This document shows, piece after piece, positions 4,763 to 48,876 of a stretch of DNA of 64,000 bases. The notes beneath the pieces were generated by a model. The model made no database searches and was not told the DNA's origin. It worked only from the letters and a program-made list of their open reading frames with translations. The position numbers and the translations under genes were made by a program. The stretch's first letter is position 1. Every line of letters starts with the position of its first letter. Source of the DNA: Sulfolobales archaeon Acd1 (GTDB lineage Archaea; Thermoproteota; Thermoprotei_A; Sulfolobales; Sulfolobaceae); assembly GCA_000389735.1 (NCBI GenBank), contig APJY01000001.1:372001-436000 (forward strand). The letters are read 5' to 3'.

Positions 4763-4770
4763 GTTCGAAA

Positions 4771-5724: not shown

Positions 5725-5725
5725 G

Positions 5726-6703
5726 ATGAAACTGATAACTATAATTTTTATAATATTATTTGCATTTTCTTTCTTTCTTTCTCTAATTTATGGAGATGTC
5801 GATATTCCCATATCTCAACTAGTTCATCCAAATAGTATTTATGCGTACATCTTATATGAAATAAGATTACCCACGGTACTTTCAGCCGTATTTATAGGTA
5901 TAATTTTATCCGTATCTGGCGCAATTTTACAGATGCTTTTAAGAAATCCACTCGTAGACTCATACATAAGCGGCACCGCATCCGGAGGAGCTTTTGGAGC
6001 CGTACTGGCTTATTTCTTATTACTTTTCAATTTACCCTTCTCGTGGATCGTCTTCTTTCAACCGATTATAGCGTTTATAATGGCATTACTTGCTACTTTA
6101 ATTACTATTATAATTGGGAAAAGAAGTGGTTTTTTAGGGCTCATAATTGGTGGTGTACTAGTTTCCTTCGTGTTCTCCTCCTTAGTTACTATCCTTTTAT
6201 CATTCATGAGCTTAAAATACCCCCAAATACCCTCACTTACATTCTGGCTGTTAGGCGATATTAGTGTAATAGGCTGGTTTGACGTAATTGTTTTAGCTAT
6301 CTTGTCTACATTGCTGCTCTCTTTAGCAATACTTAAGTCAAGAATTATCGATTTGTTAGCGATAAGTGACGAAATATCTTACGCCCACGGTTTAAATCCC
6401 GATAGCCAAAGAATACTTTGGCTAGCGTTAGTAAGTTCTGCAGTAGCTTATTGTGTTTCAATAGCTGGTACAATAGGATTTTTAGGTTTAATAGTTCCTC
6501 ATATAATCAGAAGGTTAGTAGGGGGGAATACGAAGGCTTTGTCTATTTATTCTTCATTAATAGGCTCTACAATTTTAATGTTGAGCAACATCGTATCTCG
6601 CGGATTACTAGGTTATTACATTCCCCTAACCGCAGTTATGTCTCTAATAGGCTCACCGATAATGATAATGGCATTAGTGAGGAGAAATGCTAGTGCTGAA
6701 TAA
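5726..6703 (+). CDS. FecCD/BtuC-family ABC transporter permease
   Basis: Membrane channel of the iron-chelate/cobalamin importer. The 325-residue protein has roughly nine to ten hydrophobic segments. The FecCD signature is clear: RLPTVLSAVFIGIILSVSG, then QMLLRNPLVDSYISG with GGAFGAVLAY. The cytoplasmic loop GTIGFLGLIVPHIIRRLVG (near 250-268) is the family's ATPase contact. The start ATG follows the previous stop by one base. Length matches the family. Confidence 0.88.
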   Translation: MKLITIIFIILFAFSFFLSLIYGDVDIPISQLVHPNSIYAYILYEIRLPTVLSAVFIGIILSVSGAILQMLLRNPLVDSYISGTASGGAFGAVLAYFLLLFNLPFSWIVFFQPIIAFIMALLATLITIIIGKRSGFLGLIIGGVLVSFVFSSLVTILLSFMSLKYPQIPSLTFWLLGDISVIGWFDVIVLAILSTLLLSLAILKSRIIDLLAISDEISYAHGLNPDSQRILWLALVSSAVAYCVSIAGTIGFLGLIVPHIIRRLVGGNTKALSIYSSLIGSTILMLSNIVSRGLLGYYIPLTAVMSLIGSPIMIMALVRRNASAE

Positions 6704-7352
6704 TATTAATGTTAACATAAACGGAAAGAGGATTTTGTCAGACATCTCTTTTTCTGTAAATCACGGCGTAAACGTTGTTCTGGGACCTAACGGTAGTGGG
6801 AAAACTACCCTGTTAAGAGCGATAATAGGAATGGTGAAATACAGTGGGGAAATCAGGGTATCTGGCGGCGTTTCATTCGTTCCAGCAGAGTTCTCATCCC
6901 CTCAAATGAACGTAATTGATGTTCTTTTATCTGGTAATAGGAAAGCTGATTATTTGCATTTCGTCAAGGAATTGGATTTAGAAAAGTTTCTCAATAGAGA
7001 GTTTTCCACACTGAGTTCGGGTGAGAAAAAATTAGTTCTAATAGCAAAAGCTTTAGCTGAGGGAGAAAACGTGATCATGGATGAGCCGTTATCTAATTTG
7101 GATGTAAAAAATAGATTAAAGATAATGAAAATAATGAAAAAATTTAAGAAAACTTTCCTCATAACATCCCATGAATTAGATATAGTGAATTATTCAGATA
7201 AGATAATTCTTCTTAGTGAGGGCAAATTAGTTTACGACGGAAGCTCGAGCGACCTCTCAGAAGATCTAATTTCTAGTGTGTACGGTGTAAAGATTAAAAA
7301 GGTCGAAATAAACGGCGACATATACTTTAGGCCCATAGAATATTCACTGTAA
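6687..7352 (+). CDS. ABC transporter ATPase of the iron/cobalamin-type importer
   Basis: Powers the FecCD-type permease just upstream, overlapping it by 17 bases. Walker A GPNGSGKT is at 33-40, the signature LSSGE at 109-113, Walker B VIMDEP at 129-134, and the switch His in TSHELD. At 221 residues it is shorter than typical FecE/BtuD proteins (about 250). The Q-loop reads VPAE where a Gln is normally found (VPQ), an odd substitution that may change coupling to the permease. AT-rich like the rest of the island. Confidence 0.85.
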   Translation: MLVLNNINVNINGKRILSDISFSVNHGVNVVLGPNGSGKTTLLRAIIGMVKYSGEIRVSGGVSFVPAEFSSPQMNVIDVLLSGNRKADYLHFVKELDLEKFLNREFSTLSSGEKKLVLIAKALAEGENVIMDEPLSNLDVKNRLKIMKIMKKFKKTFLITSHELDIVNYSDKIILLSEGKLVYDGSSSDLSEDLISSVYGVKIKKVEINGDIYFRPIEYSL

Positions 7353-7428
7353 TTATCCTTTACAATTTTGTTTAAACTTCTTACTTGACTAACCAGATTT
7401 TAATGTAGGCGAATAGTAGTTGCTTCTA

Positions 7429-7485
7429 ATGAGAGTTTCAGGAGTTAAAGGAGGAGTAGGTAAAGTTACAACATCGTTATGTTAA
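7429..7485 (+). pseudogene. Relic of a ParA/MinD-type ATPase start
   Basis: From ATG 7429 the reading is 18 codons ending at TAA 7485, and contains VKGGVGKVTTS. That is the deviant Walker A of ParA/MinD/Soj ATPases (KGGVGK-S/T-T) almost unchanged, with one Val where Ser or Thr belongs. Everything after it is gone. It marks a lost partition-type gene from a plasmid, virus or island. No partner ParB-like gene is visible. Confidence 0.55.
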
Positions 7486-7623
7486 TCTAAGCGACTGTCT
7501 TTAAACGGCGAACGTTTATCTTTTTATCAAATATTTGTATGTCTAATGAAGGAGGATTCAGGAAAATTTTAGCAAAATTTTGAATGGATGAAAACACTGC
7601 CGTGCTCTTCTACTTGTTAGATA

Positions 7624-7668
7624 GCTATAAAACTTGGGAGGGGGTAAGTTACTTACCAGGGGGTAAGT
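7624..7668 (+). promoter_or_regulatory. Promoter with palindromic operator before the ATPase gene
   Basis: A TATA-like box ctataaaa lies at 7624-7631. About 20 bases on is the palindrome GGTAAGT-T-ACTTACC (7643-7657), and a further direct copy of the half site, with its leading G run (gggggtaagt), at 7640-7649 and 7659-7668, ending two bases before the ATG. Three half sites over the start of transcription suggest repression, possibly by the gene product or a companion regulator (inference). Confidence 0.6.
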
Positions 7669-7670
7669 AA

Positions 7671-8762
7671 ATGTTATTCGACCCGAGACCGAAGGACAAT
7701 TTGAAGGACTTATTCGACAGAGAATCGGAAATCTCATTGCTCAAAAATTCGCTAGACTCTCCTTTAATTGTTGTAGTTGGACTTAGAAGAACAGGGAAGA
7801 CGTCATTGATAAAATCAGTTTTAAACAATACTAGGTCAACCTATATTTATTTAGATATGAGAAGGTTTGAAAATAAAGATTATATCGTATACAAAGATTT
7901 CATTAAATCTCTTGAAAGGGAAATAAACGAGATTACCAGAAAAAACAAGGATCTCCTGTCTTATCTTCGCCACATACAGGGAGTTCAGGTCATGGGGTTT
8001 TCAGTAAGTTTCAGTTGGGGAGAAGAAAAAGTCGAATTATCCGACTTGTTTTCGGAATTGAACGATTGGGCAAGTGAAAGGGAAAAAACTGTGCATATCG
8101 TAATTGATGAGGCACAGGAGTTAATAAAGCTTAGAGGATACAGTATTTTACCTTCCATCGCTTATGCTTATGACAACCTAAGGAATTTAAGTTTTATAAT
8201 AACTGGTTCAGAAGTCAGAGTAAGAGATAAATTTTTAAAATTAGAAGACGAAAATTCGCCCCTCTTCGGAAGGACACATGTAGAAATTAACTTGCTGCCC
8301 TTTAGCAAGGAAACGGCAATTAGGTTCTTAGAGGAGGGGTTCAAAGAACAAGGAATAAATTTCCAAGATTCAGAGAAAATCTTTGATGTTCTAGGAGGAA
8401 ATCCAGGCTGGCTAACTTATTTCGGTTACATCTACGTAAAGCACGGGAGAGACGAGGAAAAGGCTATCTTAGAAACGAAGAGATACGCAAAGAGGTTGCT
8501 CTCTAGGGAATTCTGTAACTTCATAAGGGAAGGGAATAGAGACAAGAGGAGGTATTTAAAGGTAATAGAAACCTGCAGGAAAGGATGCGGTTGGAAGGAT
8601 ATTAAAAACTCTCTTGAAGCTCTGGAAGGCAGAGAGATAAACGACGGAACCGTGAGCGACATAATAAATAACTTAATAGAGTACTCCTTCTTTGTGAAAG
8701 AGGATAGAAAATACATGATTACAGATAAGTTATTAGAAGAAATAATTGACGTAAGATGCTAA
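7671..8762 (+). CDS. Archaeal ATPase (ATPase_2/STAND-like) with C-terminal winged helix
   Basis: A 363-residue member of the archaea-specific P-loop ATPase group. Walker A GLRRTGKTS is at 37-45, Walker B VHIVIDEAQE at 141-150, and a sensor segment IITGSE near 183. The last 80 residues look like a winged-helix domain. Such proteins are abundant and often mobile in Sulfolobales; roles proposed include defence and plasmid-type functions, none proved for this one. The start is ATG 7671, right after the operator. AT-rich codons tie it to the island. Confidence 0.75.
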   Translation: MLFDPRPKDNLKDLFDRESEISLLKNSLDSPLIVVVGLRRTGKTSLIKSVLNNTRSTYIYLDMRRFENKDYIVYKDFIKSLEREINEITRKNKDLLSYLRHIQGVQVMGFSVSFSWGEEKVELSDLFSELNDWASEREKTVHIVIDEAQELIKLRGYSILPSIAYAYDNLRNLSFIITGSEVRVRDKFLKLEDENSPLFGRTHVEINLLPFSKETAIRFLEEGFKEQGINFQDSEKIFDVLGGNPGWLTYFGYIYVKHGRDEEKAILETKRYAKRLLSREFCNFIREGNRDKRRYLKVIETCRKGCGWKDIKNSLEALEGREINDGTVSDIINNLIEYSFFVKEDRKYMITDKLLEEIIDVRC

Positions 8763-8802
8763 TGCCAGTTTCAGAATAATAATTCTTGACGAAGCCTATC
8801 CT

Positions 8803-8884
8803 CCCCGCCCTGGAAGGGCGAGGGTTCTCCTCTCTGTAAGTGATAACTATCATGAATTTCTTCTCGGTAAACCTGGGGGTTTAC
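8803..8884. mobile_element. Remnant of an IS200/IS605-type right end
   Basis: A GC-rich hairpin at 8803-8823 (arm CCC-C-CGCCC, loop tggaa, arm GGGCG-A-GG) has the look of the right-end/omega-RNA hairpin that follows tnpB in archaeal IS200/IS605 elements. A second perfect hairpin, GTAAACC/GGTTTAC, lies at 8867-8884. No tnpA or tnpB remains next to them, so this is debris or a non-autonomous copy. Confidence 0.4.
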
Positions 8885-9023
8885 TGAATCTTTCTAACGA
8901 GAGTAGAAAGCCGGGATCCCACATATGCACTTATACTGCTTACTTAACAATTTTTCAAAATTCAATGAGAAGAAATTCTATTGGCCACATTATTTTATTA
9001 ACCTCTGTGAGAAGTTCATACAT

Positions 9024-9173
9024 ATGAGAATTGTTGAGGACGAGTACGGTAATAGGTTTCTAGAGATTGAGAATAAGGAAGATTTTAGGAAATTTAAGGA
9101 GGATTTATTGAAGAGGGCTAAGGAAAAGGCTAACGCCCGTAAACCTTCTTATGAGATCCAATCTCCCAAATGA
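9024..9173 (+). CDS. Small charged protein, 49 aa, unknown
   Basis: ATG 9024 is preferred over the upstream ORF start at 8925, because a TATA-like tattttatta at 8991-9000 lies about 26 bases before it, giving a leaderless message, and because the upstream codons give an unlikely aromatic-rich leader. The product is highly charged and helical (KEDFRKFKEDLLKRAKEKA), the style of a small antitoxin or DNA-associated protein. It is convergent with a RelE-like gene three bases away, which is not the usual order for a toxin-antitoxin pair. Confidence 0.5.
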   Translation: MRIVEDEYGNRFLEIENKEDFRKFKEDLLKRAKEKANARKPSYEIQSPK

Positions 9174-9176
9174 AAA

Positions 9177-9434
9177 CTATACAGTTTTTGAATCAACGCT
9201 ATAAAGTATTCTCATATCCCCAGTTACTTCTAATAAAAACATAGTATTTCCGTGTACATCTTTTCCCAACTTCTCCCTGGAGTATTTGAAAGGGTTCTCT
9301 TGCAACAACTCCAATTTCTCTAAAACCAGCATGAGCAATTTATCATTGAATTCATCAGTAGCGAATTCTATGAATTCCTCATAGCTCTTAGCCTTCTTCA
9401 GCTGAAACCTTAACTTCCACTCTTTGCAAACCAC
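9177..9434 (-). CDS. RelE/ParE-like protein
   Basis: An 85-residue protein whose second half, LLQENPFKYSREKLGKDV followed by FLLEVTGDMRILYSVD, follows the RelE/ParE pattern (NP-x-KLK ... YRIRVGDYRIIYEID). RelE-type toxins are mRNA interferases. Here the chain ends just after the Arg-Ile-Leu-Tyr strand, so the last strand and catalytic tail of active RelE are missing or very short. Start taken as GTG 9434. No antitoxin gene lies upstream in the same direction; the nearest small gene is convergent. Could be a degenerate toxin. Confidence 0.5.
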   Translation of the reverse strand: MVCKEWKLRFQLKKAKSYEEFIEFATDEFNDKLLMLVLEKLELLQENPFKYSREKLGKDVHGNTMFLLEVTGDMRILYSVDSKTV

Positions 9435-9497
9435 ATTAAAAGATATAGAGAACTTACTTTGAAAATCTATTTCTATCTCTTTTGGTATATTATCTCG

Positions 9498-9710
9498 TTA
9501 GAAATAATAGTCGTTAAGCTGATAGTCATGTAGATAAAGGGCCACAAATAACTTTAGTATTCCGAGGAGAATTGCTGAACCGTTTACTGCCGGGTTGTCG
9601 TAAGGGAAGTGGGCTAGGGCTACCCTCCTCTACCTTCCGTGATAAATCCCAAAAGGAACACTAACGCTCCTTCCTTATTCCTCCCTGTAGAGAATTAGAA
9701 TAAACTCTCC
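9498..9710 (-). pseudogene. Frameshifted remnant of a hydrophobic protein
   Basis: Minus-strand translation shows ALVFLLGFITEGRG and then, one frame over, RVALAHFPYDNPAVNGSAIL followed by a hydrophobic segment and a stop at 9498. The two pieces join smoothly if one base is gained or lost near 9625. A further stop lies upstream near 9700. I do not recognise the family. This is a decayed membrane-protein gene inside the AT-rich island. Confidence 0.4.
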
Positions 9711-9741
9711 AGTTTAATAAGAAAAAATTCTATCTTATCAT

Positions 9742-9909
9742 TCACTGTATAACCATTCTGATCCTGTCCTTTACCGCCGAAATCTCTACTGAAATTTCGT
9801 CGTTATGTAGCTCATTTATAGTGAAGTTCACAGCTTCATCTAGCTGGAAGCAAACCCTCAACAACTTAACTAACTTTTCTAAGTTTCCTCTGATACTGTA
9901 AAGTCTCAC
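9742..9909 (-). CDS. Small acidic protein, 55 aa, overlapping partner gene
   Basis: Starts at GTG 9909, whose GTGA overlaps the stop of the upstream 60-residue gene (9906-9908). It reads 55 codons to TGA 9742. The product opens MRLYSIRGNLEKLVKLLRVC and has an acidic, beta-prone second half (EISVEISAVKDRIRMVIQ). A four-base stop/start overlap strongly implies translational coupling. I do not recognise the family; it resembles the small paired proteins found on crenarchaeal islands. Confidence 0.55.
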   Translation of the reverse strand: MRLYSIRGNLEKLVKLLRVCFQLDEAVNFTINELHNDEISVEISAVKDRIRMVIQ

Positions 9910-10088
9910 TCGTAGTCCATCACCTGTGATATTAAACAGTATATTAAGGATTCCCTAGCTTTTGTTAGGTATTCGTATGCCTCATCGTCATAGCTCATTA
10001 CAACCTTCATAGCCTCATTAATGTGATAAATAGCGTTAATAACTTCTAACAGCTCTTCGTCTTTCACTTCTCTCTGACTCTGCAACAA
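9906..10088 (-). CDS. Small helical protein, 60 aa, unknown
   Basis: Reads from TTG 10088 (or GTG 10067, giving 53 residues). The product is almost entirely amphipathic helix (EELLEVINAIYHINEAMKVV, then DEAYEYLTKARESLIYCLIS), a two-helix hairpin shape reminiscent of HEPN-like or CopG-partner small proteins, but no motif confirms this. It is coupled by overlap to the 55-residue gene downstream. Together they look like a two-protein module beside tRNA-Glu. Confidence 0.5.
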   Translation of the reverse strand: MLQSQREVKDEELLEVINAIYHINEAMKVVMSYDDEAYEYLTKARESLIYCLISQVMDYE

Positions 10089-10141: not shown

Positions 10142-10232
10142 TGCCGCGGCCGGGATTTGAACCCGGGTCTCGGGCTCGAAAGGCCCGAATCCTCTCGGCC
10201 CGCCTCCGTTGACCGGGCTAGACGACCGCGGC
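10142..10232 (-). tRNA. tRNA-Glu (UUC) with a probable D-loop intron
   Basis: Acceptor arms GCCGCGG and CCGCGGC pair perfectly. The anticodon stem CGGGC/GCCCG closes the seven-base loop CTTTCGA, giving anticodon TTC. The T arm is CCGGG-TTCAAAT-CCCGG; the discriminator is A and no CCA is encoded. The gene is about 17 bases too long. The surplus, roughly aacggaggcgggccgag, sits in the D loop between GGTC and AGGAT, where removal restores a normal 73-base tRNA. CGGGC in the insert can pair with GCCCG of the D loop to build a bulge-helix-bulge-like splice site. A TATA-like ttttaaat lies upstream near 10258-10265. Confidence 0.88.
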
Positions 10233-23204: not shown

Positions 23205-23798
23205 CTAGAGGATGGGCCTCCTCGACATCCCCTCGTGACTCATTCCCTCGTTTTTGAACCTCTCCTCCAGAAAGACGTTGCCCCTCTCGTGATAACCCCT
23301 CTCTTCCCAGAACCCGTCCACGTAATCCTTCCTGAACTCTATTTCGGTCAACCACTTCGCGCTCTTCCAGGCGTATAGGTGGGGAATAATGGGCCTGGCC
23401 GGAAACCCTTCCTTCAGCTCGAGCCTTCTTCCGTTTATCCTCAGGGCGATTACGGAGTCCTCGTGTAGGGCGTCCTCAATGGGGACTACTGAACCGTATC
23501 CGTCCAGTGACTTGAAGAGAACCCACTTAGCTTCCTTACTGACTCCCGCCAGCTCAGCCAGCCTCCTTATTTTTACCCCCTCCCACTCCACGTCCTTAAC
23601 GCTCCACCCAGTGACGCAGTGGAAGCCCCTAACGTAACGCGTGTCTATCATCCTCTCCAGCTCCTCGTAAGTGAACTCCGAAGGTCTCTCGACGAGACCG
23701 GACACTCTCAGCCTCCAGGAGCTAATGTCGACCCTCGGGACGCCCAAGGCCGCGTAATAGATGAACTTCTTCACGTAGTGCTGGTTGGGGGGATCCAC
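23205..23798 (-). CDS. Sulfite-oxidase-fold molybdopterin oxidoreductase (MsrP/YedY-like)
   Basis: A 197-residue single-domain Mo enzyme. The molybdenum-binding Cys is in [18 protein letters not shown], the canonical SUOX/MsrP context. It is followed by [19 protein letters not shown], the conserved cofactor loop, and the terminal [12 protein letters not shown]. No dimerisation domain and no Tat signal, so it is a minimal cytoplasmic form. Related enzymes oxidise sulfite or reduce methionine sulfoxide; which applies here is unknown. GTG 23798 is the start. Confidence 0.8.
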
Positions 23799-36890: not shown

Positions 36891-37484
36891 ATGTTAGTTC
36901 CACCGTTCATGCGTGGCGTAAGGAAGAGGAGTTATCCCGTCAATTCCCTCGATCGTGATAGCTTAATTTCCGTAAGAGGTCAGAGTGACGTAGTAGAGGT
37001 ATCGGCCTTGAACCCCGCGGACTCCATGATAATGGACGTCTTCAAGAGGTTGGGCCTCACGGTAACGATCCCTCCTGGAGCCAAGGAGGCATTCAGGGTA
37101 GCCACTCAGCCCCCTAACGGGGGGCCCATAGTGGAGGTCATAAGGCCGACGCCGGAGGCGGACTTCTACATAATCGCTATGGGGATAGCCGTGGCCAAGG
37201 AGCATCAGGACGCCCTGAGGTCCCTACCCCCCGAGCGGAGGAGGGAGTTCCTGCTGAGGCTCAAGAAGGACATCTTGAGGTATGAGGTCGACATGGCCTT
37301 TCTCCCCCCTGACAAGGAGGTTCCGGAGGCCGTTCAGGTAACTAGGCTGGTGTTCGCCGACGGCCTGGATCCCAACAGGCTCCTGGATAATTATTATAAG
37401 GTTAGGAACGCAGGCCTCGACTTCATGATCACCCTAGCAGACACCTTCAGGGACGTCCAAAAAGGCAGGACTACCTACCTCTAA
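36891..37484 (+). CDS. DUF2299-like protein, paralogue of the gene at 48463
   Basis: From about residue 47 this matches the smaller protein at 48463: MAFLPPDKEVPEAVQVTRLV and FADGLDPNRLLDNYYKVRNA here, VFMPPDREVPRTVQIAKLAF and DGLTSNEMLNLVTLVKNAAY there. DUF2299 is a small alpha/beta family of unknown role. The start is uncertain: ATG 36891, ATG 36909 or a later codon; the first 40 residues may be an extension. The two copies bracket the NrfD/molybdoenzyme region, hinting at a shared job there. Confidence 0.6.
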   Translation: MLVPPFMRGVRKRSYPVNSLDRDSLISVRGQSDVVEVSALNPADSMIMDVFKRLGLTVTIPPGAKEAFRVATQPPNGGPIVEVIRPTPEADFYIIAMGIAVAKEHQDALRSLPPERRREFLLRLKKDILRYEVDMAFLPPDKEVPEAVQVTRLVFADGLDPNRLLDNYYKVRNAGLDFMITLADTFRDVQKGRTTYL

Positions 37485-37524
37485 GCTTTGAGGTTCGAGG
37501 CCAAGCGATCCAAAGACGCTCCCC

Positions 37525-38169
37525 TTAACGACCGGGAGCGGAAACCTCCGAACCGAAAGCCTCGATCTTCGGGATTTCGTCACACGCGAAGTTGAGTCTG
37601 TAGCCGTGTTTCGGACACCTCACCGCTATCCAGCACGGCCTTCCCCTCTCGTCTAAGGAGAGTATCCCTTTACATGAACCGTTCAAAACGATCGAGGGGA
37701 GGAGGCTTACTAGGAAGTAGGCGACCACCCGCCTTGCCCCTTCAGGCATCATTTCAGCGAACCTGTACAGGAATCCGGCGAGGGCCTCGGGCCTGTTGAA
37801 GCACAGTCCGTCGAGGTCTAAACCTAGGTCTTCTGCCTCGGATGACAGCCAATCTAAGAGTTCCCTCAGGTCGTCAACATCCCCTTCGTATCCCCACGCC
37901 TCTTTCAAGGCTTCGAGCGCCTTAATTTTGGTCGCCCTGTCGCTACAGCTCCGATAAAGGGCGATCACACCTTTCGGGGTGATCTTAAACGTCTTGCCCT
38001 CCTTCAAGACGTAGCCCTTCGTCGAGAAGACCTTCAAGACCCTCCAGGCGGTCGCGAAGGGGATGTCGGCCTCCAGGGCCAGCTTATAGGAGGAGAGGGG
38101 CCCGGTGAGGAGGAGGTACTTAAGGGCCCTCTCGAGCTTGTCCGAGGCCTTGGTCGACGTCGATGACAT
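37525..38169 (-). CDS. Winged-helix regulator with Cys-rich C-terminal domain
   Basis: Residues 10-65 form a winged helix (YLLLTGPLSSYKLALEADIP, then TAWRVLKVFSTKGYVLKEGK). After a helical linker the C-terminal 50 residues hold clustered Cys (GSCKG, PCWIAVRCPKHG, FACDE), a likely zinc or redox-sensing site. It lies just downstream of the NrfD gene on the same strand and ATG 38169 is 101 bases from it. A regulator of the Mo-enzyme cluster is a natural guess. No direct proof. Confidence 0.65.
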   Translation of the reverse strand: MSSTSTKASDKLERALKYLLLTGPLSSYKLALEADIPFATAWRVLKVFSTKGYVLKEGKTFKITPKGVIALYRSCSDRATKIKALEALKEAWGYEGDVDDLRELLDWLSSEAEDLGLDLDGLCFNRPEALAGFLYRFAEMMPEGARRVVAYFLVSLLPSIVLNGSCKGILSLDERGRPCWIAVRCPKHGYRLNFACDEIPKIEAFGSEVSAPGR

Positions 38170-38270
38170 CTTTAGAACACGTTAAATGCTTAAGGTAAAC
38201 AAAATATAAAAGTGTTATAATTAAAAATTCTAATATATATTCTAATACATAAATAAAAAATTTATTTAAG

Positions 38271-39320
38271 TCAACCTCTCCAGCCGAAGGATCCGATGGG
38301 TATCGGTTGGTTGCTGACGATCTGGAAGGGCGTCATAGGGGCGGTCTGATAGGCTATCTGCCCTGCTATCAGCACGTCCGCCCTCGTCAGGTAGGCTGCC
38401 ACTATCGCGAAGATCGCCGCTACTACTATGGCGTACTTAACGGCGCTCGGTAAGTCCCCGACCTTGACCTCTCCGGCCTTGCTCTTGCCGAAGATTGTAC
38501 CCAGCGGTACAGACGCTAGGTAGCCCCCGCCCGAGATGATGACAGCCAACGCGGAGATCACCAGGTCCACGTAGAACGTGGCTTGCGAGGTCAGATAGGC
38601 GTAACCTACCTCGTTGAAAACATACCCAGTGTTCAGCGTGGCGAGGTAGAGGAACCACGAGGCCAGCTCCGCTATTCCGGCGAAGGTTATCAGCTTGGCG
38701 AGCGTCCTCCTGGCACTCACCCCCTCGTCCCCCTTAACGGCTATCGAGAGTATGTAAGCTACCCCGGCTCCGACGAACACTCCTCCGGCCAGGAAGAGGA
38801 GGGGGATAGCGCCGCTGTTCCACATCGGCACTCCAGGTGCCGCCGCGAACTCGAAGCCGCTGTAAACCGTTGAGAATATCCCGAAGAGCATTGCGATGGT
38901 GGAGAAGGCGACCCTCAGCCACAGAGGTACCTTACTTAAGTACACGGCTATCGTGTACAGAATCGCGAACAGCAGGAGGCCGCTTACGAAGATAATACCC
39001 CTCGCCATCCAGGAGTGACTGAAGTTGGCCAGTGCCTCAACGGGGGCTGATGTCGCGGCGTACGGCCTCCCCAAGTCCATGGCGAAGAAGGCGAAGGCCA
39101 GGATAGCGGTCACTACAACAACTGGGGCGCCGAGTCTCGGTAGGCTCCTATACTTGCCCGTGAACTCCATGATCCCTAGGATCGCCATAAGCATGCCGGC
39201 GAGCTCGGTGAAGAAGAGCGCAAGGGCCACGTACTCTCCCCACAGCGGGTACCTGTTTATCTGAATGATCGGCGCCTGCACACCGAAGGGTAGGTTAGGC
39301 GGCGACGTGAACAGGCCCAT
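38271..39320 (-). CDS. NrfD/PsrC-type membrane subunit
   Basis: Membrane quinone-interacting subunit of a complex iron-sulfur molybdoenzyme. 349 residues with about nine hydrophobic helices. The first part matches the NrfD family: LWGEYVALALFFTELAGMLM, a conserved Asp in AFFAMDLGRPY and the SHSWMARGIIF segment. It has no haem ligands of its own. Encoded divergently from the catalytic subunit, separated from it by the TPR gene, which is unusual; NrfD normally follows the Fe-S subunit. Most likely partner is the Mo enzyme at 40462. Confidence 0.85.
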   Translation of the reverse strand: MGLFTSPPNLPFGVQAPIIQINRYPLWGEYVALALFFTELAGMLMAILGIMEFTGKYRSLPRLGAPVVVVTAILAFAFFAMDLGRPYAATSAPVEALANFSHSWMARGIIFVSGLLLFAILYTIAVYLSKVPLWLRVAFSTIAMLFGIFSTVYSGFEFAAAPGVPMWNSGAIPLLFLAGGVFVGAGVAYILSIAVKGDEGVSARRTLAKLITFAGIAELASWFLYLATLNTGYVFNEVGYAYLTSQATFYVDLVISALAVIISGGGYLASVPLGTIFGKSKAGEVKVGDLPSAVKYAIVVAAIFAIVAAYLTRADVLIAGQIAYQTAPMTPFQIVSNQPIPIGSFGWRG

Positions 39321-39485
39321 TTCCTTTCAGGCGATAATTGCTTAAAATATTATAAAAAACGTTCTCTCCAACAATCCGATATGAAATACCTTACATATAT
39401 CCCTACGTGCAATCGTTATTTTGGTTAATTTCCTAAATAGGGAAAAGAAACGTTTATTTAGGCTAAGCGCAAACGAACTAAGAGT
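39321..39485. promoter_or_regulatory. Divergent promoter between NrfD and TPR genes
   Basis: An AT-rich gap with TATA-like boxes toward both sides: ataatattttaa on the NrfD side near 39340-39355 and gtttattta at 39452-39460 toward the TPR gene. A seven-base inverted repeat, CCTAAAT (39432-39438) and ATTTAGG (39456-39462), encloses the right-hand TATA box. Could be an operator for the neighbouring winged-helix regulator; function unproven. Confidence 0.4.
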
Positions 39486-40391
39486 TTGACCGACAACATC
39501 GAACAACTGATGGAGCAGGGTAAGTACGATGAAGTGTTAAGCCTCGTTCAGGGGGACGATCAGAACTCCAGGCTCGTCAGGGCGTTCGTCCTCATGAAGG
39601 CCGGAAGGCTGAACAAGGCCTTGAAGGAACTTGAGGGGTTAGAGGTCCCAGAGGCCTCCTACCTGAGGTTCGAGATATACAGGGGCCTGGGAGATAAAGA
39701 GAAAGCCGCGAAGGAAGCCATGAAGTTACTCGAGGGCCGCGAGGACGACCACTTGGCCAACTACTTCGTGGCTCAGTACTTCTACGATGGCGGGAACCTA
39801 GAGGAGGCCCTGAGGCACATCGACAGGGCCCTGGCAGTAGTTCCACACAGCTACGAGTACAAGAAGCTCAAGGCGAAGATCCTCTTCGACCTGGGTGACT
39901 ACGAGGGGGCCTCCGTTGTCCTGACGGACTTGCTCGCCATGAACCCCAAGGACGTGGAGGCCAGGAAGATGAAGGCGATGTGCTACTATAACTTGGGGCT
40001 GAGGATGGACGCCCTGGCGGAAATCAACAAGGCCCTCGACGTTAGGAAGGACGACGTTGAGCTGAGGGTTCTCAAGGCCAGAATCTACTACGAGACGGGG
40101 TTCTACAAGCTGGCCTTATCGGACTTCAAGGCCGCCCTCAGGCTAAGGCCTAATGACCCAGACATAGCTTACAGCGTAGCGGCCTGCTACTATCATATAG
40201 AGATGTATAGGGAGGCAGAGGAGTACGTGAACATGGCGTTAAGGCTCTCCGAGAAGGGGGAGTACTACGCCCTGAAGGCCCTGATAAAGAGGGCTGAAGG
40301 TGACACGAAGTCGGCCAAGGAACTGGCGAAAAGGGCCGTTCAGTTAGAGCCTTCAACTAAACCTAAGGTATTGGACTTACTTACCGAGTAG
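39486..40391 (+). CDS. TPR-repeat protein, 301 aa
   Basis: A solenoid of about eight 34-residue TPR units (YFVAQYFYDGGNLEEALRHI, LKAKILFDLGDYEGASVVLT, LKARIYYETGFYKLALSDFK and others). No membrane segment or enzyme domain. TTG 39486 fits a leaderless start about 25 bases after the TATA-like box. Placed between the NrfD and catalytic-subunit genes, it could be an assembly factor holding the large apoenzyme before Tat export (inference). Confidence 0.85.
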   Translation: MTDNIEQLMEQGKYDEVLSLVQGDDQNSRLVRAFVLMKAGRLNKALKELEGLEVPEASYLRFEIYRGLGDKEKAAKEAMKLLEGREDDHLANYFVAQYFYDGGNLEEALRHIDRALAVVPHSYEYKKLKAKILFDLGDYEGASVVLTDLLAMNPKDVEARKMKAMCYYNLGLRMDALAEINKALDVRKDDVELRVLKARIYYETGFYKLALSDFKAALRLRPNDPDIAYSVAACYYHIEMYREAEEYVNMALRLSEKGEYYALKALIKRAEGDTKSAKELAKRAVQLEPSTKPKVLDLLTE

Positions 40392-40461
40392 GGATTGTTT
40401 CCAGCCGGACATATCGTTTGATTGAAGCGAAGCCATATAAAAGGATTAAATTAACTAATTT

Positions 40462-43400
40462 GTGAGAAAAAGAATGAGTAGCCTAAAGCTGACGAGGAGG
40501 GACTTCCTAAAGGTAGCTGGAATAACGGCCGTCACAACCGCCATAATGCTTGAGGGAGGGTCGATAGTAGATAAAATATTCAAGGCTCAACAGACCGGCT
40601 ACGTCCTCGAGTACCCCAACGACGAGGTCGTCTACGGGAACTGCTTCCAGTGCCTCGGAAGGTGCGCCATAGAAATAGTAAGGACTCCCCAGGGCTACCC
40701 GAGGTTCGTGACCGGAACGATCGGTTGGCACATAAACGACGGCGGCGTTTGCCCGAGAGGTGCCGCAGACGTTTATTACTACTTCGCGCCCGTAAGGACG
40801 AGGTTCCCCCTAATTAGGGCCGGGGATAGGGGCTCGGGCAAGTGGATGGCGGTTGACTACGATACCGCCTTCGACATAATCGTGAACGGCGCTAACGCGA
40901 AGAGCTGGCAGAAGCTGGGCCTTGATCCGAAGGCGCTGGGTGTTGGCAACTTCCCCGGTTTGTTACAAATTAGGCAGACCAACCCCCACGCCTTCGCGTA
41001 CTTCCAAGGAAGGGACCAGCTGATACCGGGAATTAACGCGGGCTTCTTCGCGGGGAACTTCGGAACCGCCAACGCTGGCGCTCACGGTGGGTTCTGTTCC
41101 ATGAACGTCTACACGGCGGGGAACTACGTTACTGGAGCTCCGGTCTGGGAGTACGCGGGTCCGGACGAGCAGAGGGCACAGTACTTCATCCTCGCAGGGC
41201 TCGCCGGCGACCACTTCCCTAACTGGATGAGAAGGATAATAGCTAGGATAAGGGAGAACGGAGGGAAGGTCTTAACTATAGCCCCTGAGAGGTTCGGCTT
41301 CTACTCGGTGTCGGACGAGCACCTGTTCATCAACCCCGCCACCGACGGAGCCCTGGCCATGGGTTGGATAAGGGTTCTCGTCGACTTCCACTATTACGTT
41401 TACAAGGCGTACCTCGCCGCTAATGGGCAAGCAAGCCCCGTTTTGAACCCGCAGACCTTACAGCCTGTAACGCCGGCGTACGATCCTACGACGAACCAAC
41501 TCATTATGCAGACTATAGCCCCCAACGGGCAGGTAGTCCAGTTGCCCCAGTTCGGTGACATACCCTCAACCGCGAATCACCCCCATATAGACGAGGAGTT
41601 CCTCAGGTACTACACCAACCTGTCCTGGCTCGTGATAGTCAACCCCAACCCGCAGAACGGGGACTGCTTAGATCCCTCTGACCCGAACGCTGGGAACAAC
41701 GTCGGGCTCCACGTGAGGATGCCCGTGAATAACCCGGAGTACGCCAGTCAGCACCCCTGGCTAGAGGCCGTGATGGGAAGCGACGGCAACGTCTATGCCT
41801 TCGTGGACATCCCGTGGCAGAATGGAGTATACCCCATACTGACGTTGGACGAGCTACCCCAGAACATGTTGTCCAATATAGTGCAAGTGCCGTACAAGCT
41901 GAAGAACGGCACGGTCGTTAAGGTTCCCGCGGTTCAGGTCACCGTCCCCAAGGCCCTAGGGAGCAACGAGACGATCACGTTGACCGTCACCACGGCCTTC
42001 GAGCTGCTGAGGGCCGAGCTCATGAACTACGATCCGTACACGCCCTCCAACCAACCGGCACAGTACGGTGCCCTCAACGTCGCCTCGGTCACAGGTATAC
42101 CCCACCATACCGTAGTCAGGATAGCCAACGAGATAGCTAACGTGGCGTTCCAGAAGGCCATATATGAGCCCGTGAAATGGATCGATTACCTGGGAAGGTT
42201 CCACGATCACGTGGTGGGGAGACCAGTATCCATTTACTTCATGAGGGGGTTGGCGGCCCACGCTAACGGTTTCCTCAGCGCGGCCTCCCTCTACTACCTC
42301 GTCCTCATGATCGGCGCTTGGGACAACCCTGGGGCGACCAGTTACAAGTACCCGTACCCTCACTACTTCCCTGGCCATGCCGTTCCTCCCCACCCCTTGG
42401 CTAATACCCCCACGATAGACCCAGACGTGGCTTCCGCCATCTCTAGCTTGAGCAACGTGAGCTTCCCCAAGGGCAGGTCGGGCTTCCAGAAGACCGAGTA
42501 CATCTATAACGACGGTACCGTGGACGTCAAGGACGTTAAGATAGTCTCCGCGGGAGCCTACGGCTTCCCCGACGGCCCTGACGACCTGGTAATTTACAAG
42601 ACCGGGAGGCCCCTGCTGGTCGACAGGGCCTACAGCTGGGAAATGCCTCTGACCACACAGAGGTCCTTTTCCGCTGTCCTCCTCACGACGTACTTCATGA
42701 ACAAGTACCCTGGGATCGTTCCGTATAACATCCAGGCCATGATGTGGTACATTGCCTCTCCCTTCTGGAACAACGCTTACACCTTATCGGAAGTTTTGTC
42801 GAAGATGACGGAGAAAGACTCGAACGGCAATTACGTCATACCGTTTACCATCAGCATAGACCTCTTCATGCAGGAGACCAACAACGTCGTCGATATGGTG
42901 ATACCCGACCTATCCTTCCTGGAGGTCTACGGTTTCCACTCGACGTTCGACAGGCCGACCAGCCTGCCTTCTGGGCCCTCGGACTCCCTGAACTGGCCCG
43001 TGCTTCCCGCGCTTTATCCTGTCCTTTCAGTAGGCGACTTCCTCCTGACCTTACTTTGGCTGGTTAGAGGCTACCCCAACCAGGGGGACAACATTGACCC
43101 AACTAAGAACCCGCACTACACGACGCAGGACCCAGTGACGGGGCTGCCCCTGATAAGCCCAGTAACGGTCCACGACCCAGTGACGGGGGCCACGGTCTTA
43201 CAAGAGAAGCAGCCAGGTCTGATATCGACGGCGATGTTCATATTGAAGAGCAGCATACTGATCGCCGGCTACGGAAACAACTTCGAGTACATACTGAAAA
43301 ACGCTGAAGACAAACAGTCCCCGAACCCGCAGCAGCTGAAGCTCTACGCGTCCTTTGTGCCAGCGGGTGCAAAGCAGGATGACGTGATTAACCAGATCAA

Positions 43401-44787
43401 GAGCAACGTCCCGTCCGGCCAACAGTTCTCAACGGCCAAGACCTACGTAATACCCGCCAACCAGAGGTCTCAGGGGGTAGAGCACTACTTCAGGATACCC
43501 GTGAAGTTCCAGCCCACACTACAACAAATGCTCCAAAACATCATAAACAAGTACGCGCAGGGCAACATGACCCTGGAGGACATCAACCCAGGTTATGTCA
43601 AGGTGGGGAAGGGAGGGGCCGTATACGTACTACCGTCATCCCTGAGGTACATGAGGAACGTGAACATGCTTTACTTCAAGGGCTGGGGCGCTTACATGCC
43701 AGGCGCTTACGGTCCTATAGGTCTACCGTACTTGCATAGGATCTACCTGGAGTACTTACAGAAGTTCAGGCTAGCTGCAGCAGGTAAATGGACGGGATAC
43801 AACGCGGCCTACTATTACTTCTACAAGCTGACCAATAACCCCAAGTTCCTGGTAAAGAGCGTTGTCCCCAACGACTCCTACGGCAAAGCGTTGGCCAAGA
43901 ACATACTGGACTACTTCAGGCCGTTCGGAGGCTACTACCCGCCGCCCACCTGGAAGTCCGACATCACCCCCGACGGCGTAAACCTCAGCGAGTACCCGCT
44001 GACCATGGTCGTGAGAAGGCACGACAGAATGTACCAATCCTGGTCCTTCAACGTCCCCTGGCTTGCCGCCACGGTGCCCTACACTCCGGTAATGTTGAGC
44101 TCGGCCGACCCCTACGTGCAATCGATGGGGATTAAGTCGGGCGACTTCGTCCAGTTCGAGGCCGTGAACGAGCCTTGGGCTGGAGGTCTGAGGACTACCT
44201 TGACAGCGATAGCGTTCCTAGACAACGCCACCAGACCGGGCGCCGCTTGGGTGGTGGTGAGCGCGGAGGGACTGGCGGGCTTCAGGGGTATGAACCCGGA
44301 CGCGCCATACGTGAAGTACAGCACGATGCAGAACTGGGCCAACATTCTCTACATGCCGCCCTCGAGGGGAGGAACGTTGGATCCCGTGAAGGACAACGCC
44401 TTCCCCATATTCAACTTAGATCCGATCACCGGACAGACGGCCTGGCACGACACCAGGATCAAGATAATTGGGAAGGCCAACGGGGCCACGAGTTCAGGGG
44501 TAAGCGCCAGCAGGTTCGTCTACATGGGCACGGACTTCTCCAATCAGGACATCAAGACGGTCATCCTCAACCAGATGGGAGGACAGATCAGCGTGAGCGG
44601 TGCCAGCAACGGCGCTCCGTTCGCGGAGCAGGTAAACGTTCCCCACCTGAGGTTCAACGCCAACCAGATAGAGAACACCAGCATCTGGAGCTACGTGGCT
44701 CCCTACAGCCTGGCCTCGAACAACTACCAGCTAGGTAACTTCAGGGTCAGGTACGGGTTCGCGGGTGAGCCCCTTGGATCTAGTTAA
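40462..44787 (+). CDS. Giant Tat-exported molybdopterin oxidoreductase, catalytic subunit
   Basis: A 1441-residue DMSO-reductase-superfamily enzyme, much longer than PsrA/PhsA/SreA-type relatives (about 750-1100). Tat motif TRRDFLK is at 11-17. [4Fe-4S] ligands are Cys61, Cys64, Cys68 and Cys97. Cys212 in [10 protein letters not shown] is the probable molybdenum ligand. The C-terminal cofactor domain follows near 1130-1400 ([20 protein letters not shown]). The extra length lies in several insertions rich in Pro, Asn and Tyr between 330 and 1100. The enzyme acts outside the membrane. GTG 40462 (leaderless, TATA-like atataaaa at 40435-40442) or ATG 40474. Substrate unknown: sulfur, polysulfide, tetrathionate, sulfite or another oxyanion. 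Confidence 0.85.
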
Positions 44788-44826
44788 ATTTTTTGAAAAT
44801 TTTAAAATAAATAGGAGGTGGTGAAT

Positions 44827-45684
44827 GTGTCGAGCTCCCCCATAACCCTGGACATAAGGCAGGGAGGAGTGCAGCACTCTCCACCCTACACGCCCAAAAA
44901 GAACTACGCGATAATCACGGATCTCAACAAGTGCTTCGGTTGCGCCGGCTGTCAGATGTCGTGCAAGGAGTGGAACACCTCGGGCATGTTCGGTCCGCTA
45001 CCTGACCTCAACCCGTACGGAGACCTGGACGTGATGTTCTGGCTCAGAGTACTCTACGTGGAGGTCGGTAACTACCCGCAGACCAAGGTCTACAACATCC
45101 CCATAAACTGTTACCACTGCATGAACGCACCGTGCGTTCCGGTCTGCCCCGTGGGGGCCACGTTCAAGAGGACAGAGGACGGGATAGTGTTGGTGGACTA
45201 CAACGAGTGTATCGGAACGAAGTACTGCATCTACGCGTGCCCGTACGGCAACAGGTTCTTCGACTACATAGAGGGGGTAACGAAGAAGTGCACCCACTGC
45301 TTCGACAGGATCTACGACCCGAACCTGCCGCCGGAGGAGAGGATCCCGGCCTGCATACACGGCTGCATGGTTCAAGCCAGGATATGGGCTGACAGGCTCG
45401 ACCCGACCGACCAAGGCAACATACTCTTCATAGACAAGGGAGGCTTCGTAATGGGACCCGAGACAGGAGCGGATCCGGCCAGCGGATACCTACCGTGGAG
45501 GAGCATTTACGCAGGTAACGACGTCCAGATCCTCACCCAGGAAGAGTACTACAACGTGTGGACCTCCAACGGCGTGGTGATACTGGGGGCTCAGGGCAAT
45601 AACTCCACCTACACGGAACAAGTCACTAACTCCACCAACACTGGAGGGAACCAGGGCTCCTCGGGAAGCAGCTCGAGCGGTTGA
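44827..45684 (+). CDS. Four-cluster Fe-S subunit (PsrB/NrfC type)
   Basis: Electron-transfer subunit between the Mo enzyme and NrfD. Four groups of Cys are present: [41 protein letters not shown] and CTHCF ... CIHGC, the standard pattern for four [4Fe-4S] clusters. The last 30 residues are an Asn/Ser/Gly tail with sequons, which suggests the protein is exposed outside the cell with the catalytic subunit. GTG 44827 is chosen because the perfect Shine-Dalgarno GGAGGTG (44814-44820) stands six bases before it; the ORF opens at 44818 inside that site. Confidence 0.88.
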
Positions 45685-45739
45685 AAGGGGTTAAAATTAA
45701 GCTAAATTAATTAAGTTAAGTCATACTGGTGTTTTTTAG

Positions 45740-46384
45740 ATGTCTCAAGCACTAGACACGGCTACGTTCAGGTTCCTCGTCTACGACGTGTTCTCCACGC
45801 TCTTCTATTACAACTTCAGGGAAGAGGACTACGAGTCCATGACGAAGAAGCTGAAAGCTTTATCTAACCTCACCGTTGAGGGCGTTGATATCGGCAAGAT
45901 CGCGGAGAAGGTTCTGAAAGCTGAGAAGAAAGACCTGCTCATAGAGTACACAACACTGTTCTTGACCGGCACCGGCGTTAAGCCCTTGACGCCAGTGGAG
46001 AGCAAGAGGTTCTACTCCCTCATGGGCGAGGGGGTGGCCACCTTCAGGTATAACGACATCCTGAGGTTCTACGGGTCGAGGAACTTGAGGCTCAACAGGC
46101 TGGACTTCTTCGCGCCCGAGCCCGACCACGTGGCCACTATATTGGCCTTCATGGCCTATTTGATAAGGGAGGAGGCGGAGCTGAAGGAGAAGGGGGGAAC
46201 GGAGCTTCAGAGGAACCTGATGGACCAGAGGAACTTCTTCACGACCCACGTTTACGGCTGGATACCCGACTGGGCGAACGACGTGGTTCACGACCCCAGG
46301 GCTGATATCTACAAGGTGGTCTGCGAGGAGTTGGGCAAGTGGCTTGAGCTGGAGAGGCGGTACCTGCTGGGTGGCAAGAATTGA
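45740..46384 (+). CDS. TorD/NarJ-family molybdoenzyme chaperone
   Basis: Helical 214-residue protein that binds the Tat signal and helps insert the molybdenum cofactor before export. Family marks are LLIEYTTLFLTGTGVKPLTP, then ESKRFYSLMGEG, and the second-half motif LDFFAPEPDHVATILAFMAY (usually E-P-D-H-x-x-x-E-L-x-F-M). ATG 45740. Its TGA overlaps the TTG of the next gene (TTGA, 46381-46384). Its presence supports assembly and export of the giant enzyme upstream. Confidence 0.82.
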   Translation: MSQALDTATFRFLVYDVFSTLFYYNFREEDYESMTKKLKALSNLTVEGVDIGKIAEKVLKAEKKDLLIEYTTLFLTGTGVKPLTPVESKRFYSLMGEGVATFRYNDILRFYGSRNLRLNRLDFFAPEPDHVATILAFMAYLIREEAELKEKGGTELQRNLMDQRNFFTTHVYGWIPDWANDVVHDPRADIYKVVCEELGKWLELERRYLLGGKN

Positions 46385-47850
46385 GGGTTGGGCTAGTGGT
46401 ATCCAAGAGAGCCAGGGAAGTTTTGGGCGACCAGTTCCTCAAGGGGATTTACGAGGAGAGCGGAGTCCCTTACTTGGCCGAGTACGGGGACTACCTCAAG
46501 CAGGACGTCAGGGACAACGACCTTCAGGGGCTATTGATCGTCTCGGAGACGCCTTTCGGTGAGGACGTTAAAGCCAGGGCCGACGAGCTACTCGGCCTCA
46601 ACCCCTTCGCGGTCGAACTCCTCCCCCTGGAGTGGCTGAGCGACAAGGGAGAGGACTACAGGAGGGCCTTGATTCTAGCTTACCTATCGAAGCTGGAGAG
46701 GCACGACTTAGTTTACAGGCTCCAGCCAGTGAAGGCCACGACCATAAGCAGGAGGTCGCTCATAAGGTTCAAGCTATATGAATACAGGGCCTACCCGGTC
46801 CTTTTTGACTCCTTCAACTTCGAGAGGGAGATCAACACCCTTATAGAGTCGTGCCCTAAGGGGCTGGTCGCCAGGTCGATAGAGGGCGTTTCCGTCACTA
46901 ACCCCTCGGACTGCTCGGGCTGCGGCTATTGCACGGCCAAGGGGTACTTGGGTTACCTGGAGATGCCGAACTTCACGACGGATCAGTTCGTGGCCTTCGT
47001 CAACTCCGTCGTGAGGAACTACCCCAAGGCCAGAGGGTTGGTGTTCACTGGGGAAAAGGACGTTAAGCTGAGGGAGGACATGGTCCCGCTGACCGTTCCC
47101 AGTATCGCCTCGATCCCCGACAGCTTCGTTATGGCCTCCTTCGCGGCGGGTCTAACGCCGGTAATTGTGGTTCCGGAGAAGCCCTCAGACCTCGAGCTCA
47201 AGAGGCTGGCGGAGATCCCGGACCGGTTCCCTGGGACGGAGCTGAAGGTTCACAAGGTCAAGAAGGGGGAGATCGAGAAGCTAACGCTCCCGGAGTTGGG
47301 GAAGGCCGCGATCCCGGAGGACGTTCCGCTCTCGAAGTACAGGCGGAGGAGCCTCTACGCCTGGGCCTTGGAGGAGATGGCCAGGAAGGTCAAACTGAAC
47401 GAGGACGACCAAGTCCCGGGAGTTTACTACGTCGAGGTTGACCCCTCCAAGTGCGTCCTGTGCGGGGTCTGCGTCAGGGCGTGTCAAATGATGGTTCCCG
47501 ACATGAGGACGACGAACGACCTCACGTACCTGGAGTACAACATCCCCTTCTGCATCGGCTCCCAGCGATGCGTGAGGAACTGCCCGGAGAACGCGATAAA
47601 GGTGGAAAGGTTGGCCAAGGTTAAGGAGCTAAAGAAATTCAGGTATGTGGAGGCGAAGGTGTTGAGGTGTAAGTACTGCGGGAAGCCCATAGGGAACGTC
47701 AAGATTAGGGGGAGGGTGGACGACCTGCTGGACAAGCACAACTACAATAACGTGACCCAGTACACTGACGTCTGTAACGACTGCAAGCAGAAGGTCTTGA
47801 CCAAGATGTGGCTGGAGAACTACCTCAAGCTGAGGGGACAGCTCAAATGA
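46381..47850 (+). CDS. Multi-cluster Fe-S protein with zinc ribbon, 489 aa, novel architecture
   Basis: Not a standard subunit of PsrABC-type enzymes. Cys178, 181 and 184 (CSGCGYC) suggest one site in the N-terminal half. A ferredoxin domain follows: Cys358, 361, 364 and 368, then Cys391, 397 and 401. The C-terminus has Cys430-x2-Cys433 and Cys465-x2-Cys468, a zinc-ribbon-like pair. The first 170 residues form an unrecognised alpha/beta domain. No Tat signal, so cytoplasmic. TTG start overlaps torD and its TGA overlaps the next ATG: three genes in tight translational coupling. May feed electrons or act in assembly. Confidence 0.7.
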   Translation: MRVGLVVSKRAREVLGDQFLKGIYEESGVPYLAEYGDYLKQDVRDNDLQGLLIVSETPFGEDVKARADELLGLNPFAVELLPLEWLSDKGEDYRRALILAYLSKLERHDLVYRLQPVKATTISRRSLIRFKLYEYRAYPVLFDSFNFEREINTLIESCPKGLVARSIEGVSVTNPSDCSGCGYCTAKGYLGYLEMPNFTTDQFVAFVNSVVRNYPKARGLVFTGEKDVKLREDMVPLTVPSIASIPDSFVMASFAAGLTPVIVVPEKPSDLELKRLAEIPDRFPGTELKVHKVKKGEIEKLTLPELGKAAIPEDVPLSKYRRRSLYAWALEEMARKVKLNEDDQVPGVYYVEVDPSKCVLCGVCVRACQMMVPDMRTTNDLTYLEYNIPFCIGSQRCVRNCPENAIKVERLAKVKELKKFRYVEAKVLRCKYCGKPIGNVKIRGRVDDLLDKHNYNNVTQYTDVCNDCKQKVLTKMWLENYLKLRGQLK

Positions 47851-48461
47851 TGGTCGTGTTCCTCAACTTCGCGGACTCCTTGGTTAGACTGGACGACGAA
47901 ACTAAGAGGTTGATAGAAAACGTCAACTGCGTCGTGAGCTCTTACGTTACCTCAGGCGTTCACCTGCCTTATGAAACGATTCTCGAGTCCTTGCAGAAAG
48001 GGGTGACCGAGAGGATAGCCAAGATGCCCCCGTGGGATGACGCCTTCCTCGTCGAGGAACTGAGTTACAGGGCCAGGATATTCGTCGTGAGCAACTTCAG
48101 TCAGAATGTGGTCAAGGACTTCCTGATCCGGAACAACCTCGACGCCTTCGTCGACGGAGTGATATCGAGCGGGGACGTTATGAGGCTCAAGCCGTCGAGG
48201 GAGTTCTTCGAGATGGCCTCTAAGAAGGCCAACGTTCCTTTACAGGCGATAACCCTAGTCTCCTCCAACCCCTTCGACGCGCTCATGGCCAAGTCGCTTA
48301 GGATGAGGGCGTTCTGGCTGAACAGGAGGGGGTCAACCTTCCCGTTCCCCGCAGGTCTCCAGCCTGATAGCGTCGTGAGTAGCTTGAGAGTCGTCGCCGA
48401 GATTACCGCGGAGAAGAAGGTCGACTCAAGGATGGGGGACTCCGCCCTGAGGTGTACCTGA
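47847..48461 (+). CDS. HAD-fold protein with replaced catalytic residues
   Basis: ATG 47847 overlaps the previous stop (ATGA). The HAD core is recognisable: VVSNFSQNVVKDFLIRNNLD (motif II), RLKPSREFFEMAS (motif III Lys) and LVSSNPFDALMAKSLRMRAF (motif IV). Motif I, normally Asp-x-Asp-x-Thr, reads NFADSL at residues 7-12, so both catalytic aspartates are gone, and motif IV has Ser where the first Asp should be. A pseudophosphatase that binds rather than hydrolyses is likely. Its place inside the molybdoenzyme operon suggests a structural or chaperone role. Confidence 0.65.
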   Translation: MMVVFLNFADSLVRLDDETKRLIENVNCVVSSYVTSGVHLPYETILESLQKGVTERIAKMPPWDDAFLVEELSYRARIFVVSNFSQNVVKDFLIRNNLDAFVDGVISSGDVMRLKPSREFFEMASKKANVPLQAITLVSSNPFDALMAKSLRMRAFWLNRRGSTFPFPAGLQPDSVVSSLRVVAEITAEKKVDSRMGDSALRCT

Positions 48462-48462
48462 A

Positions 48463-48876
48463 ATGGCCTCCGATGCGGAAGTCGTCGACTGGTTCGTAGA
48501 GTTGGGGATGAAGGTCGAGAAGGTCACGTCGGGCAATTACTACTTCCACATAACGATAGGCCCGCCGGTCGGGGAGGGATTAAAGGTCTCGGTCCTGAGG
48601 AAGACCCCCACCAGTAAGTACTACGTAATAGCGGTCAACCTAGATCTGCCTGAGGACAAGCTGAAGGAGAGGCCAGAGCTGCTCAAGGAGTTGAAGTTGG
48701 ACTTGCTCAGGATGAACGTTGAGTTCGTCTTCATGCCCCCAGACCGGGAGGTGCCGAGGACGGTTCAGATAGCCAAGTTGGCGTTCCTCGACGGTCTGAC
48801 CAGCAACGAGATGTTGAACCTAGTGACCTTGGTCAAGAACGCGGCCTACTTAGTGCTAACGAGGATTTACGGTTGA
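48463..48876 (+). CDS. DUF2299-like protein, 137 aa
   Basis: Starts at ATG 48463, one base after the HAD gene's stop, as last gene of the molybdoenzyme operon. A small alpha/beta protein with the shared core VFMPPDREVPRTVQIAKLAF, paralogous to the longer protein at 36891-37484. DUF2299 has no known function. The second copy near the NrfD end makes a link with the respiratory complex more plausible. Confidence 0.68.
   Translation: MASDAEVVDWFVELGMKVEKVTSGNYYFHITIGPPVGEGLKVSVLRKTPTSKYYVIAVNLDLPEDKLKERPELLKELKLDLLRMNVEFVFMPPDREVPRTVQIAKLAFLDGLTSNEMLNLVTLVKNAAYLVLTRIYG

Follow-up and report, generated by a model that had tools for sequence, protein, structure and literature searches.

Genes of the locus and their conservation

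The window, meaning the whole 64,000-nucleotide stretch of DNA analyzed here, was taken from an assembly of 1.5 Mb that was 93.5% complete. Between positions 36,891 and 48,876 it holds ten open reading frames, all at the positions given by an earlier sequence-only reading, whose family assignments agreed with our family matches; the locus proved to be real, and nine of its genes recur together in relatives. Two genes lie on the reverse strand, namely a winged-helix regulator (wHTH) with four conserved cysteines (37525..38169, −) and an NrfD-type membrane quinone subunit with eight hydrophobic segments (38271..39320, −; PF03916, 8e-12). They are followed on the forward strand by a TPR-repeat protein (39486..40391, +), the 1441-aa Mo-bisPGD catalytic subunit, which is predicted to be Tat-exported and belongs to a SoeA-like clade (40462..44787, +), and an Fe-S electron-transfer subunit of the SoeB-like clade with four cluster sites (44818..45684, +). 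The remaining forward genes encode a TorD/NarJ-family chaperone of the family of SreE (45740..46384, +), a SreD-like polyferredoxin with a C-terminal zinc ribbon that has lost several cluster cysteines (46381..47850, +), a HAD-like protein with a 2-haloacid dehalogenase fold and an eroded active site (47847..48461, +), and a cluster-specific, second DUF2299 protein (48463..48876, +). The listed start of the HAD gene at 47808 is probably too early, judging from the orthologues, most of which begin near the ATG at 47847. The first DUF2299 gene (36891..37484, +) is a housekeeping copy that lies outside the module.

Across 229 genomes searched in the class (Thermoproteia), close full-length relatives of the 1441-aa catalytic subunit were found in 22 of the 31 genomes of its own archaeal family and in none outside it. 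The gene was unbroken in 20 of the 21 other carriers, encoding 1428–1461 aa with 73–83% identity. In the remaining carrier (G203:C1:198716-204189) the orthologue is in two parts, with about 1.2 kb of other sequence between them. Candidatus Aramenus sulfurataquae AZ1, Metallosphaera yellowstonensis MK1, and M. javensis AS-7 could be named as relatives through a peptide-pattern scan of contigs, which used narrow patterns and gave four named loci. The module was present in all six genomes of the genus containing the named Metallosphaera loci.

The gene-neighborhood comparison proposed by the sequence-only reading was carried out on 20 relatives, with 16–20 kb per neighborhood. Nine core genes (wHTH, NrfD, TPR, Mo, Fe-S, TorD, polyferredoxin, HAD, and DUF2299) were present in 20/20 neighborhoods, the regulator and the TPR gene being linked in every one. 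Two gene orders were seen, the first largely contiguous and the second with a TPR-polyferredoxin-HAD-DUF2299-NrfD block separate from Mo-Fe-S-TorD. That gene content was kept while order varied speaks for a functional module, and the recurrence of all nine in every neighborhood, together with the 21 other family genomes that carry the Mo gene, excludes a chance association.

Two further observations were made on the surroundings. In 13 of the 20 loci the wHTH gene has a conserved neighbor of about 295 aa (for example at L056:5703-6602 and L058:12299-13177), whose sequences form two groups; it had no Pfam match and was not seen in the window or in loci of the L049 type. Elsewhere in the window, at 4001-10000, the G+C content falls to about 36–38% beside a tRNA-Glu (10143-10208), as in an integrated element.

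Core subunits and their phylogenetic placement

The catalytic subunit carries the Tat motif LTRRDFLK, and RRDFLK occupied residues 12–17 in every aligned sequence. Both a cysteine Mo ligand and a CxxCxxxC...C motif for the FS0 cluster, which are features of the Cys-ligated DMSO-reductase family, could be recognized: the FS0 motif CxxCxxxC(28)C comprises C61, C64, C68, and C97, and Cys212, invariant in 13 sequences, is the predicted Mo ligand from its alignment with Cys173 of Thermus thermophilus PsrA. The claim that large insertions lengthen this subunit was borne out, as 13 stretches, about 365 residues in all, are missing from the nearest bacterial SoeA-like relatives; judged from the alignment, these insertions are lineage-specific. 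Within the clade of the Mo subunit 137 columns were invariant, 49 of which are rare outside it, including several that flank the Mo cysteine.

Among plasmid records, the Mo subunit was matched best by proteins of about 1000 aa from Azospirillum, Paraburkholderia, Burkholderia, Rhizobium, and Indioceanicola. The three annotated bacterial loci that were examined had Mo/4Fe-4S/DmsC operons. In Azospirillum the gene xsc, whose product releases sulfite, adjoins the SoeA-like operon, and in both Azospirillum and Indioceanicola transporter, aldehyde dehydrogenase, and CoA-ligase genes stand beside it, which look like sulfoacetate catabolism. Because this is a gene context in which sulfite must be disposed of, the bacterial relatives were read as SoeABC, the "SoeA/SoeB-like" label of the branch being drawn from gene context only and the trees containing no proven SoeA (that of Allochromatium vinosum or Aquifex aeolicus).

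In the alpha-subunit tree, the window protein, a group of 1230-aa paralogues, and the bacterial SoeA-like proteins formed one clade (SH-aLRT 100), and the beta-subunit tree gave the same grouping with SoeB-like proteins (support 94/98). The enzyme, which the sequence-only reading took to be distinct, therefore does have recognizable kin for both subunits. Grouping with SreA was rejected, since holding the window group, the paralogues, and SreA together in one tree cost 142.5 log units (AU p 2.75e-41). Membership in TtrA was likewise rejected, with the whole SoeA-like clade sister to, and outside, the TtrA-like branch and the TtrA model giving a score of 58 bits, where its cut-off is 1750. One Metallosphaera genome (G201; loci L041 and L094) also encodes a 1222-aa TtrA-like Mo enzyme on a long branch alongside the Soe-type module.

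The Fe-S subunit (43% identity to the Azospirillum beta subunit, E 2e-58) was described as a four-cluster protein, and four cluster sites are indeed present, though with 15 instead of 16 cluster cysteines. The tenth, Cys134, is replaced by Thr in the window protein and in 14 relatives, is retained in six relatives that show the other gene order, and is Tyr or Phe in the paralogue operons. The Thr forms included in the beta tree made up one group (98/99), so that a single cysteine loss suffices. We equate this position with that of the tryptophan in NarH that accompanies a [3Fe-4S] cluster. The membrane anchor is NrfD-type by Pfam, with a DmsC score just below the cut-off, and it gave no pairwise BLAST match to the bacterial DmsC-type anchor.

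Accessory proteins and likeness to known systems

The window polyferredoxin is homologous (21% identity, E 3e-12) to the fourth gene of a hyn-linked cluster, L034. The NiFe hydrogenase genes of this cluster precede those for a Tat Mo protein of 1036 aa, an Fe-S protein with four clusters, an NrfD protein, a polyferredoxin of 489 aa whose C-terminus forms a Cys-rich ribbon, and a TorD-like protein. From this layout we infer an sre cluster, which fits the sreABCDE and NiFe hydrogenase operon reviewed in PMC8551704, where the functions of SreD and SreE are given as unknown. The window module resembles SreABCDE of Acidianus ambivalens in its Tat Mo subunit, NrfD anchor, SreD-like polyferredoxin with zinc ribbon, and TorD-like SreE, but its catalytic and Fe-S subunits belong to other clades. 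Homologues of the TPR, HAD, DUF2299, and wHTH proteins were not found in L034, and a linked hyn/hyp NiFe hydrogenase is absent at the window module, the hydrogenase-family hits of this genome lying outside the window, at two main places. Consequently, the claim that these parts are foreign to Psr/Phs/Ttr/Sre/Soe operons applies to the overall combination and not to the Fe-S/zinc-ribbon protein. To our knowledge, the gene combination is unlike any such operon described.

The 1230-aa paralogues are encoded in three operons of the same family (L038-L040). Their Mo subunits form a sister clade, about 200 residues shorter and with 37–38% identity. Mo, Fe-S, NrfD, and polyferredoxin genes were present in 3/3 of these operons, a wHTH homologue in 2/3, and a TorD homologue in 1/3; TPR, HAD, and DUF2299 homologues were not found in them.

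The alpha and beta subunits share their clade with bacterial SoeA/SoeB-like proteins, and a membrane subunit of the NrfD superfamily is common to the window system and SoeABC (A. vinosum, Aquifex aeolicus). According to PMC8076601, the known SoeAB presumably faces the cytoplasm and SreAB the outside. The window enzyme differs from SoeABC in its Tat signal in place of a cytoplasmic location, in the extra residues of its Mo subunit, in an NrfD-type anchor that has no BLAST match to the DmsC-type one, in six extra conserved genes, and in a third Fe-S site that is one cysteine short. No RRDFLK-type Tat motif was found within the first 60 residues of the bacterial SoeA-like relatives. The module was not filed as a member of SoeABC, since the cytoplasmic location that marks known Soe does not apply to it. 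By kinship, the window system would nevertheless behave as a quinone-linked dehydrogenase of the Soe type.

The additional genes give the impression of a maturation set private to this system. The HAD-like protein, called dead in the sequence-only reading, does have drifting catalytic motifs on its 2-haloacid dehalogenase fold, the predicted structure being only moderate (pLDDT 69). A C-terminal tail [MI]GDS[AS]LRC (MGDSALRC in the window) was present in 20 of 21 HAD-like sequences, with an identity of 0.85 compared with 0.37 for the remainder; one 8-residue stretch of the body reached 0.79.

The cluster DUF2299 protein gave a predicted structure with pLDDT 92. Its best match was the uncharacterized Methanothermobacter protein 3cxj (E 2e-8), the only one to pass E 0.001; weaker matches, at E about 1e-3 to 1e-2, were to type III secretion chaperones and YbjN proteins, so its predicted fold may be described as like that of these proteins. 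A literature search found no paper on the DUF2299 family. The cluster copies of the relatives matched the second window copy best in 20/20 cases (38–60% identity) and the first at about 30%. A DUF2299 gene lies elsewhere in most genomes of the class, and it is this gene that the first window copy matches. Of the two paralogues claimed for the system, the second, found in all 20 relatives, was thus retained and the first (36891-37484) was recognized as an accidental neighbor. A further reading, which we regard as speculative and rather improbable, makes the DUF2299 protein a holdase like type III secretion chaperones that would keep the Mo subunit competent for Tat export and lets the HAD-like protein act through its MGDSALRC tail, which might for instance carry sulfur or serve as a docking peptide, in an outward-facing, sulfite-oxidizing Soe branch with its own maturation set.

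Substrate, rival explanations, and meaning

Reading the direction of the reaction, the substrate, and the accessory roles from the observed gene content, clade, Tat motif, ligand pattern, and conservation, we somewhat favor a Soe-type complex that oxidizes an external sulfur oxyanion, most probably sulfite, and passes the electrons to quinone. The Mo subunit would fold and receive its cofactor in the cytoplasm, assisted by the TorD-like, TPR, DUF2299, and HAD-like proteins, and would then leave by the Tat route along with the Fe-S subunit and dock on NrfD. Outside, it would oxidize a sulfur oxyanion, most probably sulfite from the low-pH breakdown of thiosulfate or tetrathionate, and two electrons would run by way of FS0 and the Fe-S subunit into the quinone pool and on to the terminal oxidase. 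In the Metallosphaera genus group, an open reading frame about 8 kb upstream of the module (locus L056) matched tetrathionate hydrolase (6l8a, E 6e-49), and a homologue co-occurred in four further loci of the group. The window's genome encodes a thiosulfate:quinone oxidoreductase (DoxD). Against sulfite as the substrate stand the Tat signal, when the known SoeAB presumably faces the cytoplasm, and a rival candidate in the same genome, a sulfite-oxidase-type molybdopterin protein (PF00174; window 23205-23798, −), which makes a second candidate for sulfite oxidation.

The opposite membrane side from known Soe, the large insertions near the SoeA core, and the upstream tetrathionate hydrolase of the Metallosphaera group would also suit an oxidase of another external sulfur compound, such as thiosulfate, polysulfide, or the sulfane of tetrathionate hydrolysis products. 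The extra residues and the split from the SoeA-like proteins could mean a different substrate, but the SoeA-like branch shares the signature positions that surround the Mo cysteine, and we consider this reading unlikely. Similarly doubtful is a terminal reductase that carries quinol electrons to an external acceptor (tetrathionate, polysulfide, or sulfur), as in Sre and Ttr. Tat export combined with NrfD anchoring, which Sre, Psr, and Ttr share, an Sre-type accessory pair, and the sister position of the SoeA-like clade to TtrA-like proteins are consistent with it; however, the window enzyme lies outside both the SreA and the TtrA-like branches, no hydrogenase is linked, unlike in the sre locus, and the carriers all have a heme-copper oxidase and mostly lack SreA (15 of 22). 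SreA was not found in the window's genome at E 1e-50. The oxidase distribution was uninformative as a test of oxidative versus reductive function, because all 31 family genomes have the heme-copper oxidase COX1. On the view of the sequence-only reading, this would be a respiratory system not described before, acting on a new kind of external substrate and having no relation to the known sulfur enzymes. This view draws on the unique accessory set and the insertions, but it appears highly improbable, as the catalytic and Fe-S subunits are clearly akin to SoeAB-like proteins, and two accessory proteins to SreD and SreE.

The module had probably been met before. In the M. sedula transcriptome of Auernik and Kelly (2008), Msed0812-0818, a "PSR/SR/DMSO reductase-like complex," was reportedly raised by sulfur compounds. 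These seven co-directional genes with a tetrathionate hydrolase upstream are presumably the same locus; a full-text literature search for the tags Msed_0810-0818 returned nothing relevant. In favor of the Soe-type reading that we prefer, SoeAB was reported in all Metallosphaera genomes studied (Wang et al., 2020; PMC7325606); the window module is the best candidate for it, and the system is therefore probably not an undescribed one. It had been noticed before but was uncharacterized; the Soe-like placement, the outward orientation, and the analysis of the accessory genes are new here. The module joins to a Soe-type core predicted Tat export, about 365 additional residues, an Sre-type accessory pair, a DUF2299 protein, a decayed HAD protein with a near-invariant tail, and a lost cluster cysteine.

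According to a review, it has yet to be established that the direct Soe pathway operates in archaea (PMC8551704). DUF2299 gains a predicted fold and a concrete gene context. For sulfite oxidation in the sulfur-oxidizing Sulfolobales, a conserved nine-gene Soe-like module, predicted to face the opposite side of the membrane from bacterial Soe, is now a named candidate.
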